64,000 nucleotides of DNA from Chloroflexota bacterium (GTDB lineage: Bacteria; Chloroflexota; Dehalococcoidia; Bin125). A program made the translations under genes and the position numbers. Location of the stretch: NCBI GenBank assembly GCA_028875225.1, contig JAPPFB010000012.1, positions 228,755 to 292,754 of the forward strand, in the 5' to 3' direction. Positions 11,494-54,315 of the stretch are shown piece by piece (within the stretch, counting starts at the first letter, position 1; each line of letters starts with the position of its first letter). The notes under the pieces are model-generated. The model had not been told where the DNA came from. It saw nothing but the letters and a program-made list of their open reading frames with translations, and did no database searches.

Positions 11494-13020
<1,527 letters not shown>

Positions 13021-13042: not shown

Positions 13043-13582
13043 TTAACCCTGCGCCAACGAGCGACGCATGGTAGACAGGCGCGTGCGCACAGATCCGTCG
13101 ATGATGCGATCGCCGATCTTGACGACGGCGCCGCCGATGATCTCGCTGTCGACGGTCTCGCTGAGTCTGACGTCTGCGGCGCTGCTGTATCGTCGCACCG
13201 CTTCTTCGACAGCGGCTCGCGCGTCAGCGGACAGCGGCACCGCGGTGGTCACCGTCGCCTCGGCGATGCCGCGAACGCTGTTCAGGCGCTCGCGGAACGC
13301 TTCGATGATTTGCGGGGCGAGATTGGACCGGCGTTTGCGAACAAGCAACTTGGCGAAGTTGGCTGCGTTGGGTTGCACATCGGGCAGCGCATCGTCCAGG
13401 ACTCGTTCCTTCTCGGCCTGCGCCACGCGAGTCGAGACCAGGAACCCATAAACCGTGGGCTCAGCGAACAGCGCCGCGATGTCCTCGAGATCGGACAACC
13501 AGCGATCGTGAGACGCGGTGTCGTGCGCGATGCCGAATACCGCGTCGGCGTAGCGTCGTGCAGCGGGATCGCTCAGCGCCAC
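13043..13582 (-). CDS. atpH: F-type ATP synthase subunit delta
   Basis: Peripheral-stalk subunit linking F1 alpha to subunit b (179 residues). The N-terminal six-helix domain begins with [12 protein letters not shown] and the C-terminal region contains the family pattern [21 protein letters not shown]. Nine bases separate it from atpF. Confidence 0.95.
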
Positions 13583-13591
13583 AGGCCGCTC

Positions 13592-14092
13592 CTAGTTCTG
13601 CTGCCCACTTGAGGATTCGGCCAACACATCGGCGATCAGGCGCTGATGGTCGTCCTCGTCCAGCGATTGTTCAATCACGCGCTCGGCGGCCGCGATCGCC
13701 ATGCCGGCAAACTCGTTGCGCAGCTGTTGGACCGCCTGATCGCGTTCCTGCTCGATCTCCGAACGGGCACGCTCGATCAGTTGCTCGGCCTGGCCGACCG
13801 CGTTCTCGCGCGCTTCAGCCTCAATGCGCTGGGCAAGCTCCTGAGCCTGCGCGACCAGGCGCTGCGCCTCGTCGCGGCCCTGCTGGATCTCGGCGCGAGC
13901 TTCAGCGCGCGCCTCCTCGGCGGCCTCTTGGGCTCGTTCGGACGCCGTCAGGCCCTCTTCGATCCGCTTGCGCCGCTCGTCGAGCACGCGACCGAGCGGC
14001 TTGTAGAGCAGCACGATCAGCAAGGCGAACAGGATGCCGAAACTGATGAAATGCGTGATCAGTCCGGCCAGGTTGAGACCGAGAGCGTCCAT
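13592..14092 (-). CDS. atpF: F-type ATP synthase subunit b
   Basis: Peripheral-stalk subunit (166 residues): one N-terminal membrane helix (about residues 8-30, FISFGILFALLIVLLYKPLG) and a long charged helix rich in Ala, Glu and Arg that dimerises as a coiled coil. A single b gene is present, so a b2 homodimer is expected. Separated from atpE by 100 bp that hold a strong hairpin. Confidence 0.96.
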   Translation of the reverse strand: MDALGLNLAGLITHFISFGILFALLIVLLYKPLGRVLDERRKRIEEGLTASERAQEAAEEARAEARAEIQQGRDEAQRLVAQAQELAQRIEAEARENAVGQAEQLIERARSEIEQERDQAVQQLRNEFAGMAIAAAERVIEQSLDEDDHQRLIADVLAESSSGQQN

Positions 14093-14192: not shown

Positions 14193-14520
<328 letters not shown>

Positions 14521-14528
14521 GCTGTTCC

Positions 14529-16082
14529 CTAGTGCTCGGCCGCCTCGTCGTGGTGCTCCTCGTGGTCGCCGACCGCGGTCGATGCGAACACGAGCGTCAG
14601 CATGGCGAAGACGAACGCCTGGATGAAGCCGACGAAAACTTCCAGTCCGAAGAACACCGTCGGCACCACGAAGGCGACCAGGAACATCGAGATAAACAGC
14701 ACCACTTCACCGGCAAAGATGTTGCCGAAGAGACGGAAGGTGAAGGAGATCACGCGTCCGACCTCGGAAACGATTTCCAAGATTCCGACGAACACCCCCA
14801 TCGGCCCCTTGACAATCGCGTGCGAGCCAACGCCGATGTACTTGCCGAAGTTCGCACCGATCCCGACTCCGCGCATGCCGAAATACTGCACCGCAAGGAA
14901 CGACCAGAGCGCGAGTGCCAGGGGCAGGTTCACGTCGGACGCCAGGGCCCGGAAGATTGGGAAAATGTGGCCGACCGTGCCGGTCGTCTCACCGGTCTCT
15001 GCGTCGACGTAGCCCTTCTCTTCCATCCTCAGGATGAAGCCGAGATGCGCCGTATTGACCGTGGTGGGCACGACGGCCGGATCGTGGTCGCCAATTGCGG
15101 TTTCGCATTCGATCAGGCAGAGCTGCGCGACGCTGCCGTCGGCGCCCGGCTCGATCACCAGCGGCTCCGCGAACGCGTCGTAGGAGAAGTCGCGCGTCTC
15201 GGCGAACAACGTGCGCGGCGGGATGATTTTGAATCCGTCGCCGGACAGGATCGGTCCGGTCGCCTTGACCAGTTCGGCGTCGCCGGCCACGATCGGCAGG
15301 TTGAAGACCATCGCGTACTCGAGCTCGTGGTGGCCCTCGTCGACAATCCCGCCCGCCTCCAGCCGCGACTCGATTTCGTGAACCAGGTCTTCGCCGTCGG
15401 TGCCATACGGAATCGGGTTGGTCCAGAACTCGCTGCGGACCGCAAACTCGGTGTCTGTCAGGTGGTGCTTGCGGATTTTGTGGATGATTTCGTCCGACTT
15501 GTCCTGCTTGTCGACCTTGAACGGGATCGGCTCGAAGAACGCGTTGCCGAATGCGTCATTGATCGCGTCGACTTCACCATCCGACAAGCTGCGCTCGCCT
15601 GCCTCAAGGTCTTCGACCACCTCCATCACTGAGACTTCCATCTCGTGCAGGTAGTGGTAGCGGTAGTTCTCAACTGGGCCGATGACGTTGTTCCAGGGGA
15701 ACAGCGCGAACCAGTTGCCGATCAACAGGAAGATGAAGATGGTGAAGACGAAGGGGAAGAACTTCTTGCCGTTGCGCTCGCCGCCGACCTGCTGGGAAAT
15801 GCCGAGGAAGGCTTCGTAGATCGCCTCGACCAGATTCTGGAAGCCGGAAGGAACCAGCGCCGACTCCACGTCTCGGGTCCGTCGCCAGACCACGAATGCG
15901 GCAATCACCAGGAGCAGGATGACCACCCAGGCGGACAGGATGGTGTTGGTCAACTCCATGAAGCCAAGGTCGGCGACCGGCTCGGCGGCGAGGGCGATCA
16001 CCGGCGCGGGAGCGCGGACGACGAAGAAACCGAAGACCGCGAAGGCAAGTGTGGCGAAGATGATCAGGCGTCTTCGGCTCAC
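14529..16082 (-). CDS. atpB: F-type ATP synthase subunit a with a ~235-residue extra loop domain
   Basis: Proton-channel stator subunit. Family landmarks: membrane segments near 48-66 and 111-130, SDVNLPLALALWSF (382-395), the essential Arg450 in SFTFRLFGNIFAGEV, and a final helix near 480-503. The usual length is 230-300 residues; this one is 517. The excess is one block, about residues 139-375, between the second membrane helix and the SDVNLPLAL helix. It is soluble, acidic and without membrane helices. In the five-helix topology this loop faces outside. The sequence also has an extra N-terminal hydrophobic segment (6-33) and a His/Glu-rich tail. Start overlaps the atpI/Z-like stop by 4 bp. 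Confidence 0.95.
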   Translation of the reverse strand: MSRRRLIIFATLAFAVFGFFVVRAPAPVIALAAEPVADLGFMELTNTILSAWVVILLLVIAAFVVWRRTRDVESALVPSGFQNLVEAIYEAFLGISQQVGGERNGKKFFPFVFTIFIFLLIGNWFALFPWNNVIGPVENYRYHYLHEMEVSVMEVVEDLEAGERSLSDGEVDAINDAFGNAFFEPIPFKVDKQDKSDEIIHKIRKHHLTDTEFAVRSEFWTNPIPYGTDGEDLVHEIESRLEAGGIVDEGHHELEYAMVFNLPIVAGDAELVKATGPILSGDGFKIIPPRTLFAETRDFSYDAFAEPLVIEPGADGSVAQLCLIECETAIGDHDPAVVPTTVNTAHLGFILRMEEKGYVDAETGETTGTVGHIFPIFRALASDVNLPLALALWSFLAVQYFGMRGVGIGANFGKYIGVGSHAIVKGPMGVFVGILEIVSEVGRVISFTFRLFGNIFAGEVVLFISMFLVAFVVPTVFFGLEVFVGFIQAFVFAMLTLVFASTAVGDHEEHHDEAAEH

Positions 16083-16399
16083 GCGCGATCCTCCTCGTCC
16101 TGTTCATCGTCCACCGGCGCGTCGTTACTGTGAGGGCGCCGCTCTGCCTGGTCTTGTCGTTGCCGCGCTTGAGCGGCGTCTTCACGCTGTTTCGCTTGCG
16201 CAGCGAACATATCTTGCAACATCCGGTACCCGCCCCAGCCGGCCGACGCCAGGCCAAGCGCGAGCCCGACGAGCGTGAGCGCGAATCCCGTGCCCAACTC
16301 GTCATCCAGCAGGACCCCGCCGACAACGCCCAGCACGATGCACGTGGCCACGTACCAGCCGATGCCCATGAGTTGCATGGCCGGCGGCCACTGTCTCAC
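16079..16399 (-). CDS. AtpI/AtpZ-like ATP synthase accessory membrane protein
   Basis: A 106-residue protein with two membrane segments (about 8-28 and 36-57), the pattern GGVLLDDELGTGFALTLVGLALGL seen in small AtpI/AtpZ-type proteins, and a charged Gln/Arg/Glu-rich cytoplasmic tail. Such proteins sit at the head of atp operons and help c-ring assembly or Mg/Ca supply. GTG start; 4-bp overlap with atpB. First gene of the operon, with a 114-bp gap upstream in which I see no strong promoter. Confidence 0.8.
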   Translation of the reverse strand: MRQWPPAMQLMGIGWYVATCIVLGVVGGVLLDDELGTGFALTLVGLALGLASAGWGGYRMLQDMFAAQAKQREDAAQARQRQDQAERRPHSNDAPVDDEQDEEDRA

Positions 16400-48561: not shown

Positions 48562-50352
48562 ATGAGCGGTAAGAGTTACTGGAAACGAATCCGGAAGCAA
48601 CAACTCAGTCGGCGACGATTGCTCCGTGCGGGCGGCCGCGCCGGACTCGGCGCCGCCGGTTTGGCGCTGATTGGTTGCGGCGACGATGCGGATCAGCAGC
48701 AGGCGGTCGCTCAGCAGCGTCAGCAGCAACAACAACAGCAGGCAATGGCCCAGCAGCAGGACCAACAGGACCAGCAGCAGGCGATGGCCCAGCAACAGGC
48801 GCAAGATCAGCAGCAGGACGCTCCCGCTCAGCAGCAACAGCAGGATCAAGCGCAGCAACAACAACAGCAGACCGTCGCAGCCGCGCCGGCCGACGACGCG
48901 CGTCGCGGCGGGGTGCTGCGCATCGGCTCCGACATCGGCCTGTCGACTTATCGCGCGCCGTATCTCTCTTCATCGGCGCACATTCCGCTCTACATCCCGT
49001 TCTGGGACACGCTGACCAAGTACTCCCCGGACGGTCTCGACCCGCAGCCGCACCTGGCCGAGAGCTGGGAACTGAACGACGACCAGACCATGCTGCAGGT
49101 CAAGCTCCGGCCCGGCCTGGAGTTCCACAACGGCAAGCCGCTCAATGCCACCGAGGTCAAGCGCAGCCTGGAGGCGATGGACGACGAAGGGGTCGCCAAC
49201 AACCAGGTCAAGGGGATCATGACGAAGTACGTCTCATCGGTCGACGTGATCGACGATGTGACCTTGCAGCTCAACCTGGCCTGGGGCGGCACGCTGGTCT
49301 ACGACGTCCTCAACTACGCCCAGATCCACGATGTCGACGACATCCCCAATCTGGACGGATACTCCTCCCTCAACGGCTCCGGCCCGTTCAAGTTCGACGC
49401 GTCCTCCTACCAGGTTGACCAGTACGCCGCCGGCGATCGGTTCGAGAACTTCTACGAACCGGCTCTGCTCGACGGCATCGAGCAATACCAGTTCCCCGAC
49501 GCCACCGCCATGTCGCTGGCGCTGGGCGCGGGCGAGATCGACCTGACCAACCGCCTGCCCAAGCCGGACTACGAACGCTTCAACTCCGACCCCGACTACA
49601 CCGTCGTGGTTGCCCCGCCCACGCTCGCCATCTGGGTGCTGGGCATGGTCATTCCGAACGAGAATGGCGGTCACCCGGCCTTCGCCGACCCCAAGGTGCG
49701 GCAGGCGCTCTACCGCTGTGTTGACCGCGAGCGCGTTGCGAACGAGACCTTCGAAGGCCTGGCGCAACCCAAGAACATCCTCTGGCCGCCGTTCTCGCCC
49801 GGCTACGACGAGGCCCGCGACCGCGACTACTTCGACCCCGAGGAGGCAGCCAGGTTGCTCGAAGAGGCCGGCTACGGACCCGGCGAGCTGACGATCGAGC
49901 TTGGACACGCCGGCGGCGAGGCCAACGAGATCGCGCAGGTGATCCAGGCCGGCGCGGCCGAAGCGGGCATCAACCTCAACATCCAGCTCTACGAGCCGGC
50001 CGTTGCGCGCGACCGCTTCCTCAACGCCAAGCACGAGTCCTACCTCTCGTCCTACGCGTTCTTCGCGCTGCACCCGCAGACTCTGCCGGTAATGAACTTC
50101 CAGATGCGGATCCCCAACTCCTGCGCCTACGGTCCGGACTACTACCAGGCGTTGATCGACAGCTTCGGCACTGCCGACTCGGACGCGCGCCGGAACGAGC
50201 TGCTCGAGGAATTCAACACGCTGCTGGATAACGAGCCCTGGATCGCCCCGATCGTCACCCGCAGCGACATCTGGGCCTGGTCGAGCAAGTTCACCGGCAT
50301 CGAATTCGACGTGCTCAGCATCCCCTCGATGCAGCGAATTCATCAGGTCTAG
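48562..50352 (+). CDS. Tat-exported lipoprotein, family 5 solute-binding protein with Q-rich linker
   Basis: Peptide/nickel-type ABC binding protein of 596 residues. The signal has a twin-arginine core (LSRRRLLRAGGRAG) and a lipobox ending in Cys39 (ALIGC), so it is exported folded and lipid-anchored. Residues 45-103 are a low-complexity linker with 39 Gln of 59. The family 5 domain follows (LAESWELNDDQTMLQVKLRPGLEFHNGKPLNATEVKRSLE). ATG 48562 fits the signal; the longer frame from 48487 would bury it. Followed by the DppB/DppC pair after 141 bp with a hairpin. Confidence 0.95.
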   Translation: MSGKSYWKRIRKQQLSRRRLLRAGGRAGLGAAGLALIGCGDDADQQQAVAQQRQQQQQQQAMAQQQDQQDQQQAMAQQQAQDQQQDAPAQQQQQDQAQQQQQQTVAAAPADDARRGGVLRIGSDIGLSTYRAPYLSSSAHIPLYIPFWDTLTKYSPDGLDPQPHLAESWELNDDQTMLQVKLRPGLEFHNGKPLNATEVKRSLEAMDDEGVANNQVKGIMTKYVSSVDVIDDVTLQLNLAWGGTLVYDVLNYAQIHDVDDIPNLDGYSSLNGSGPFKFDASSYQVDQYAAGDRFENFYEPALLDGIEQYQFPDATAMSLALGAGEIDLTNRLPKPDYERFNSDPDYTVVVAPPTLAIWVLGMVIPNENGGHPAFADPKVRQALYRCVDRERVANETFEGLAQPKNILWPPFSPGYDEARDRDYFDPEEAARLLEEAGYGPGELTIELGHAGGEANEIAQVIQAGAAEAGINLNIQLYEPAVARDRFLNAKHESYLSSYAFFALHPQTLPVMNFQMRIPNSCAYGPDYYQALIDSFGTADSDARRNELLEEFNTLLDNEPWIAPIVTRSDIWAWSSKFTGIEFDVLSIPSMQRIHQV

Positions 50353-52476: not shown

Positions 52477-54315
52477 ATGAACGACAAGCACTGGAGCCGA
52501 ATCCGCAAGCAACGGCTGAGCCGTCGAAGCGTGCTCAAAGCGAGCGCCCGCGCCGGAGTCGGCGCGGCCGGCCTCGCCCTGGTCGGCTGCGGCGGAGACG
52601 ATGACGACGACGCCCAGCCGCAGGCGGTCGCTCAACCGGAGCAGCAACAAGAGCAGGCCATGCAGCAGCAGGCCGAGCAGCAAGCTCAGCAACAGGAGCA
52701 ACCCGAACCGCAGCAACAGCAGGCGATGCAGGAGGAGCAACAGCAACAGGCCGTCGCGCAGCAAGCACAACAACAGGAGCAAGAACAGCCGGCTGTCCAA
52801 CAGCAGGAGCAACAACAAGAGCAGCAAGCTGCTGCCGAAGCAGAGCCTGCCGGGCCGCCGCAAGGTGGCACGTTGCGACTGGGCATCGTCTACTCGCCGG
52901 CGAACTATGCCGCCCCCTACGCGGGAGATATCGCGTTCGGCCCGGCGATCTGGGAGTCCCTGACCAAGTACGGCGCAGATGGTCTGACTCCCGAGCCGCA
53001 TCTGGCCGAGAGCTGGGAATTCAACGACGACCAGACGGTCCTGACGATCACGCTGCGGTCGGACTTGACCTTCCACGATGGCAAGCCGATGACGGCGGAG
53101 GAAGTCAAGAAGAGCCTGGAGCGGATGGACGACGAGGATGTCGCCAACAGCCAGGTCAAGAGCATCTTCAACAAGTATGTGAGCGCTGTGACGGCGGTTG
53201 ACGAGACCACGCTGCAGCTCGACCTGGCCTGGCCGGGCGAGGCGATCTTCGACGCCCTGCACTTTGCCAACATCCACGACGCCGATGCGATCTCCGGACT
53301 TGAGGGCTACACACAGGTCAACGCCAGCGGCGCCTTCAGGTTCGATCCCGACTCGTACGAAGTGGATGTCTACGCCCGCGGCGACCGGTTCGAGAACTAC
53401 TACGACCCGGCCGCGCTGGACGCGGTCGAGTGGCGCTCGTTCCAGGACGCCGAATCGATGGCCCTGGCGCTCCAGGCCGGTGAGCTCGATATGGTCTACG
53501 ACCTGCCCAAGGCGTGGCACGCCAACTTCGCCGAGGACGACGGCTTCCAGGTGGAACTGGCCCCGCCGACCAGCTTACAGTGGGTGCTGGGCATGGTCGG
53601 GACGGGGCGCGGCGGCGGCCACGAGCTCATGGACGACCCGAAGGTGCGTCGAGCCATGTACCGGGTGATCGACCGCAAGCGGATCACAGCCGAGATCTTC
53701 GAGGGCCTGTCCGAAGAGAAGAACGTGCTCTGGCCGAAGTTCTCCCCGGGCTACGACGAGTCGCTGGACCGCGACTACTTCGACATCGACGAGGCCAGGG
53801 CGCTGATCACCGAAGCCGGCTACGCGGACGGAACGCCTCCGCTCAAGATCGCCTGCATCGCCTTCCAGCAGGAAGCGCTGCAGATGGCGCAGATCATCCA
53901 GCAGGACGCCGCCCAGGCCGGCATCAATGTCGAGCCGGAGGCGATGGAGTTCTCAACCTGGCTGGACGCATTCCTGGCCGGCACGCACGAGGGTCTCTAC
54001 ATGGCCCTCTTCTCGTTCTTCGCGATGCACCCGCAAACCCTGCCGGTGATGAACTACCAGATGCGGATCCCGAACTCCTGCGCCTACGACTCTCCCGAGT
54101 ACCAGGCGATGATCGACGGCTGGCCGACCGCCGACAGCGAGGACAAACGCCAAGCGCTGCTCGACGAGTTCAACAGAATCCTTGACGAAGAACCCTGGGT
54201 CGCGCCGATCTGCACCACGGTGTCGATCTGGGCCTCCCAGTCGAATGTCAAGGGATTCTGGCAAGACGTGGTCGGCCGTCCGCGGCTGCAGGACGTCTAC
54301 TTCGACGATGCCTAG
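52477..54315 (+). CDS. Second Tat-exported lipoprotein, family 5 solute-binding protein with Q-rich linker
   Basis: Paralogue of the gene at 48562 (612 residues). Twin-arginine SRRSVLKASARAG, lipobox Cys38 (ALVGC), an Asp run (41-45), then a Gln/Glu/Ala linker (47-117). The binding domain aligns along its length: LAESWEFNDDQTVLTITLRSDLTFHDGKPMTAEEVKKSLERMDDE, FSPGYDESLDRDYFD, HPQTLPVMNYQMRIPNSCAY. The last segment is nearly identical in the two, so ligands may be related. It probably shares the permeases upstream. Confidence 0.95.
   Translation: MNDKHWSRIRKQRLSRRSVLKASARAGVGAAGLALVGCGGDDDDDAQPQAVAQPEQQQEQAMQQQAEQQAQQQEQPEPQQQQAMQEEQQQQAVAQQAQQQEQEQPAVQQQEQQQEQQAAAEAEPAGPPQGGTLRLGIVYSPANYAAPYAGDIAFGPAIWESLTKYGADGLTPEPHLAESWEFNDDQTVLTITLRSDLTFHDGKPMTAEEVKKSLERMDDEDVANSQVKSIFNKYVSAVTAVDETTLQLDLAWPGEAIFDALHFANIHDADAISGLEGYTQVNASGAFRFDPDSYEVDVYARGDRFENYYDPAALDAVEWRSFQDAESMALALQAGELDMVYDLPKAWHANFAEDDGFQVELAPPTSLQWVLGMVGTGRGGGHELMDDPKVRRAMYRVIDRKRITAEIFEGLSEEKNVLWPKFSPGYDESLDRDYFDIDEARALITEAGYADGTPPLKIACIAFQQEALQMAQIIQQDAAQAGINVEPEAMEFSTWLDAFLAGTHEGLYMALFSFFAMHPQTLPVMNYQMRIPNSCAYDSPEYQAMIDGWPTADSEDKRQALLDEFNRILDEEPWVAPICTTVSIWASQSNVKGFWQDVVGRPRLQDVYFDDA

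Follow-up and report, generated by a model that had tools for sequence, protein, structure and literature searches.

A large extra domain of ATP synthase subunit a, exchanged between species of one Dehalococcoidia family and predicted to face outside the cell

The ATP synthase subunit a (AtpB) encoded in the window, the whole 64,000-nucleotide stretch of Chloroflexota DNA analyzed here, carries an extra block of about 237 of its 517 residues. This block is an exchangeable cassette, which has been swapped as a unit by recombination inside atpB, and the exchange is the strongest clue to its function. A preliminary description of the same DNA had recognized a soluble block in an intact core, placed it on the outer side of the membrane and not taken it for a phylum-wide feature; this part of its reading stood, while the exchange of block types and the class-wide extension of the loop had escaped it. 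It had also proposed comparing AtpB across Chloroflexota, predicting the structure of the block alone and searching databases with the insert alone, and all three were carried out.

The atpB gene (14529..16082, minus strand; ORF call, Pfam and homologue alignment) starts with GTG, contains no internal stop and overlaps the end of the upstream gene of the operon, which encodes an AtpI-like ATPase_gene1 protein (16079..16399, minus strand; PF09527). The operon has the ordinary order AtpI-B-E-F-H-A, with atpE (subunit c, 82 aa; 14193..14441), atpF (subunit b; 13592..14092) and atpH (subunit delta; 13043..13582), each assigned by Pfam and by matches to solved chains, and atpA (subunit alpha; 11494..13020), which was used for the species tree, all on the minus strand. 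PF00119, the Pfam family of subunit a, aligned to AtpB on either side of the extra block, as two segments (E 4e-42; 145 bits, cut-off 33.9). The channel arginine R450, in ISFTFRLFGN (14733..14735, minus strand), is invariant among 19 AtpB homologues, as are N454, E459, E481 and Q488, in agreement with the earlier statement that the core motifs are intact. The protein thus belongs to subunit a by its PF00119 score over the cut-off, by the channel arginine with the RLFGN and Q-A-F residues, and by its place before atpE-F-H-A. The frame had been described as clean, and the insert is carried in an open frame by 19 genomes from independent assemblies, so that it is not an assembly or frame error. 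Both PF00119 pieces came from a single candidate place in the genome, which thus has one F-type subunit a, together with one c subunit, and a search of the genome for subunit I of the V-type ATPase found none; judged from these gene counts, the enzyme with the long AtpB is presumably the working ATP synthase of the cell. At its C-terminus (14529-14567) AtpB ends in a His/Asp/Glu-rich tail, GDHEEHHDEAAEH, which is presumably cytoplasmic; similar tails are found in most class AtpB sequences seen and in the Chloroflexus chain.

The extra domain (residues 136-372; 14967..15677, minus strand) lies between TM2 and the SDVNLPLAL helix, and its bounds had been placed at 139-375, right to within about 3 residues. 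Compared with other PF00119 proteins, the window AtpB has the same core helices, channel arginine and operon place, with 237 additional residues in the TM2-TM3 loop; the matched NCBIfam models of subunit a span 217-352 positions, and the longest solved relative matched has 312. The block is hydrophilic, and the split Pfam match together with its composition (D+E 48 against K+R 16) bears out the earlier picture of a soluble, acidic block in a 517-residue AtpB. It contains no membrane helix, since its maximum Kyte-Doolittle score over 19 residues is 1.12, compared with 1.5-2.9 for membrane helices; the option that the block is made of ordinary membrane helices, raised in the preliminary description, is therefore not borne out. 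The only cysteines in the protein are the pair C322/C326 (15105..15119, minus strand; homologue alignment). Two genera keep a block cysteine pair, at variable spacing, in each of their 15 members, and in the other three genera the loop has neither cysteine; one family member has an extra inserted hairpin in the loop with a cysteine pair of its own. The loop has 0, 2 or 4 cysteines in every homologue and in every class or phylum loop measured, and these even counts fit disulphides and an extracytoplasmic side. From the lack of a hydrophobic helix, the acidity and the cysteine counts we infer that the block lies outside, as had been proposed, with a disulphide and a cap position near the proton inlet.

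The block is predicted to fold by itself. AlphaFold2, run on the block alone with 19 sequences, gave a pLDDT of 77 and a pTM of 0.80; the predicted fold comprises a helical region (block residues 5-126) and a smaller region that contains strands, and 23 block residues are invariant among the 19 sequences. Modelled at full length, AtpB showed high confidence in the block and poor confidence in the membrane core, owing to the shallow alignment, which makes the pose of the cap over the inlet conjectural. Residues 136-372 had no match in Pfam, NCBIfam or PDB sequences, and the predicted fold had no usable match among known folds (Foldseek best E 3.3 in the PDB and 1.4 in a viral set; VIA-align best Z 2.2). 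Compared with PDB structures, the full-length model retrieved just chains of subunit a and some unrelated proteins, most of them helical, and a search of the available literature for such an AtpB insert found no paper.

The nearest solved relative of subunits a, b and c is the ATP synthase of Chloroflexus aurantiacus (PDB 9itj and series), from the same phylum, whose subunit a has about 36 residues between the aligned halves at this site and no domain. Each of its PDB entries contains 2 a, 4 b and 10 c chains, and by this count the enzyme has two subunits a per complex. As the preliminary description had proposed, the block could be a structural brace or could serve proton access at the inlet; if this enzyme also has two subunits a, as in C. 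aurantiacus, the block might bridge them. The relation to the C. aurantiacus enzyme, the closest among solved chains for a, b and c alike, is in keeping with such a role, as is the net charge of the block, which stays between -28 and -39 in 19/19 family members although identity falls to 30%. The delta subunit, however, matches Chloroflexus delta weakly and other solved chains better, and an exchange of types among sister species is not what would be expected of a mechanical part or a proton device. In addition, the acid excess of the block (0.135 per residue) is near the mean of 0.099 in predicted exported lipoproteins of the same genome (n = 8, a rough estimate), compared with 0.043 in soluble cytoplasmic proteins, so the acidity says little for proton access. 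We regard a brace or proton device, to which no result here specifically points, as possible but decidedly unlikely, and the idea of the acidic block as a proton antenna was dropped because its charge is near that of these exported proteins.

The block is restricted to the family of the window. A block profile matched 19 of 393 Dehalococcoidia genomes, all of them in this family and spread over five genera, and none of 373 other Dehalococcoidia genomes; an insert common to the phylum, which the preliminary description had named as the finding that would speak against its reading, was rejected by the genome searches in class and phylum. Within the family, 19 of 20 genomes in all five genera have the insert. 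The exception, G002, gave no match for subunit c either; its assembly probably lacks the operon, which suggests that the missing block reflects an assembly gap. The named relatives are uncultured Dehalococcoidia known as metagenome-assembled genomes (MAGs); the names of several (bin125, SB0664, RHO2, IRC2, COS3) point to sponge metagenomes and suggest that the family is marine and mostly sponge-associated.

Long loops at the TM2-TM3 site are more widespread than the block. In a sample of 36 class families, each represented by one genome, the loop measured between fixed anchors has 10-157 residues in other families (median ~58), and the 228-258 residues in the family of the window are the extreme of this sample. 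Across the wider phylum, most loops at the site are short, and a few reach 86-180 residues. One further kind of loop, termed A3, occupies this site in 33 of 393 class genomes from many families; it is mostly acidic and often 100-165 residues long. The A3 profile matched no member of the family of the window at E 0.01, neither hmmsearch nor profile-profile comparison gave a significant sequence relation between A3 loops and the block, and the hhalign values (E 0.038, probability 1.4%) leave a common origin unsupported. Homology to other long loops of the class, considered on account of a shared pattern (IG-V-E...H, then GP-x-x-x-x-PP), was set aside as the pattern had no statistical support. 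Judging by these sequence surveys, enlarged outer loops appear to be a habit of the class, while the block domain appears specific to one family. Several other features of subunit a were seen during the survey. The AtpB loop of L115 (genome G381) contains tandem copies of about 15 residues, YLDDHGHLKDIPEGQ, and loops at this site can thus grow by repeat expansion. Three Chloroflexota genomes outside the class (G112, G282 and G303) have two subunit a genes each, one of ordinary length and one longer, and in six well-complete Dehalococcoidia genomes (G036, G185, G292, G331, G405 and G425) F-type subunit a was not detected.

Within the family, the block comes in two types, A and B, which are ~52-56% identical and alternate among sister species. 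Type A is found in six species, including that of the window, and type B in five, with L013 and L014 forming a related pair. When the window was compared over 25 residues at a time with species such as G004 (L007), the proteins were near-identical on both sides of the block and 32-59% identical over most of it. The sister pair L003 and L011 is mostly 80-98% identical across 5.6 kb, and 54-79% over the block and 70% in an N-terminal stretch. An operon scan, refined in 10-residue steps, delimited a tract (residues 151-370; 14973..15632, minus strand) in which insert type and not species sets similarity; at this resolution the switch begins at residue 151 and ends at residue 370 in both affected species groups.

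The trees gave the same result. Three core data sets served as species-tree loci, AtpE-F-H-A (2.8 kb), rpoB and recA, with the rpoB and recA ORFs chosen by motif anchors, and their trees were concordant in the resolved groups: all three recovered (L006,(L010,(L007,L009))), (window,L002) and (L004,L005), and (L003,L011) was recovered by the operon genes and rpoB. Types A and B are mixed within these resolved species groups. In the block tree, by contrast, the type A sequences fall together (support 100/99) and type B falls with L013/L014 (100/100). The core data sets reject type A as a clade (AU p 5e-8, 3e-61 and 4e-5 for AtpE-F-H-A, rpoB and recA, respectively) and likewise type B (6e-60, 1e-41 and 4e-4), and the insert tree in turn rejects the species groups (L003,L011) (p 1e-26) and (L006,L007,L009,L010) (p 5e-61). 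At least three switches between A and B are needed on the species tree. The atpB core outside the block rejects the block-supported grouping of B with L013/L014, but its shortness and high conservation keep it from resolving the species pairs, and how far the exchange extends into the core can be given only approximately. Segment comparison and trees point to a second variable segment near the N-terminus (residues 23-47; 15942..16016, minus strand), which is probably also outside. Here an ADLGFMEL variant is common to the window and G006, whereas the sister species of each have ISIGSYEI, and residues ~36-46 place the window with L003 and not with its sister L002.

A pattern of this kind might arise if metagenome contigs were chimeras fused within the conserved core, and the named relatives are indeed all metagenome-assembled. 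In DNA sequence, however, the swapped blocks are ~10-20% different from each potential donor in the set and are thus not copies of co-assembled species; moreover, the type pattern recurs in independent assemblies, and breaks fall at the block edges in two species groups. An assembly artefact is hardly credible in this light.

Within types, the block is under strong purifying selection. Between close species of type A its dN/dS is 0.04-0.09, like that of the core, whereas comparisons of A with B give 0.44, the block dN of 0.36 being approximately ten times the core dN of 0.035. The low values within types, set against 0.44 between them, indicate that each type is tightly held and that the A/B difference is old. 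These values bear on the view that the block is a tolerated insertion without a dedicated function, class loops growing and diverging freely and being moved by general recombination. The 10-165-residue loops at the site in other class families, and those of up to 180 residues elsewhere in the phylum, would be expected from it. Loops also outpace cores elsewhere in the class: in another family, cores are 87-96% and loops 54-84% identical, outer loops simply evolving faster, and one lipoprotein likewise comes in two types. A loop free of function would nevertheless not be held at the within-type dN/dS of the core, nor would it be expected to keep its invariant residues and a confident fold of its own, and we consider a tolerated insertion decidedly unlikely.

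The lipoprotein just mentioned, an exported protein used as a control (a single protein of presumed orthology), splits L003 and L011 into two old types and keeps (L006,L007,L009,L010) together, whereas no such split is seen in the three loci that are wholly or mostly cytoplasmic. The pattern may thus be common to outside-facing proteins of the genus, and the exchange not special to ATP synthase. The lipoprotein gene (L201:82-1311, minus strand) and its relatives L216-L229 form two types, ~73-75% and 92-97% identical to that of the window, which separate the sister species G006 and G014; exchange and paralogy are both possible origins of these types. Other predicted lipoproteins, at 48619-50349 and 52477-54312 (plus strand) of the window and in L207, L210 and L215, have a twin-arginine-like leader, a lipobox cysteine followed by a run of aspartates, and a glutamine-rich linker that is very long.

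The explanation that we favor, at a little short of even confidence, is that the block is an outside cap with a surface selected externally, either as a shield or as a recognition face. It would be a folded extracytoplasmic domain that interrupts subunit a between TM2 and TM3, with two flanking helices keeping it on the outer face beside the proton inlet. Evolution would act on the cap surface; at least two old types of the block have been exchanged through recombination within atpB, while the other operon genes track the species tree and the membrane core stays near-identical. The cap might cover the exposed part of an abundant and essential complex as a recognition or shielding surface, and a switch of type would then alter what an external agent can bind. 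Both the shield role and the selecting agent are hypothetical; phages, bacteriocins or other toxins, the sponge host and a variable envelope partner are candidates.

The strongest rival is a matched partner outside the cell. On this account the block would be a docking surface for a putative S-layer, wall or other respiratory complex, and the block types would follow the types of the partner. A matched partner would be expected to impose just the pattern seen, old types each kept by purifying selection, and the outside position fits as well. The neighbouring operon genes, however, do not track the A and B types, and both types are present in MAGs of one sample series (SB0664 bins 15 and 20); we consider docking unlikely. 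The boldest form of the external-selection reading, in which the rotary motor bears an exchangeable recognition domain under selection from outside and ATP synthase acts as a variable surface antigen or receptor, we hold to be rather doubtful. In mosaic surface proteins of other bacteria, such as antigens and phage receptors, an outside segment is exchanged between species and the anchor is conserved. AtpB would resemble them by pattern only, and here the carrier is an essential subunit of a rotary motor.

Few components of bioenergetics are as conserved as subunit a, the outer face of which is commonly regarded as no more than loops. Comparing whole genes conceals exchanges of single domains within housekeeping genes, as this case shows. 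If a folded 237-residue domain is swapped there as a unit, something outside the cell would see the outer face of the ATP synthase, and the two types on one core would offer a concrete handle for finding that outside agent.
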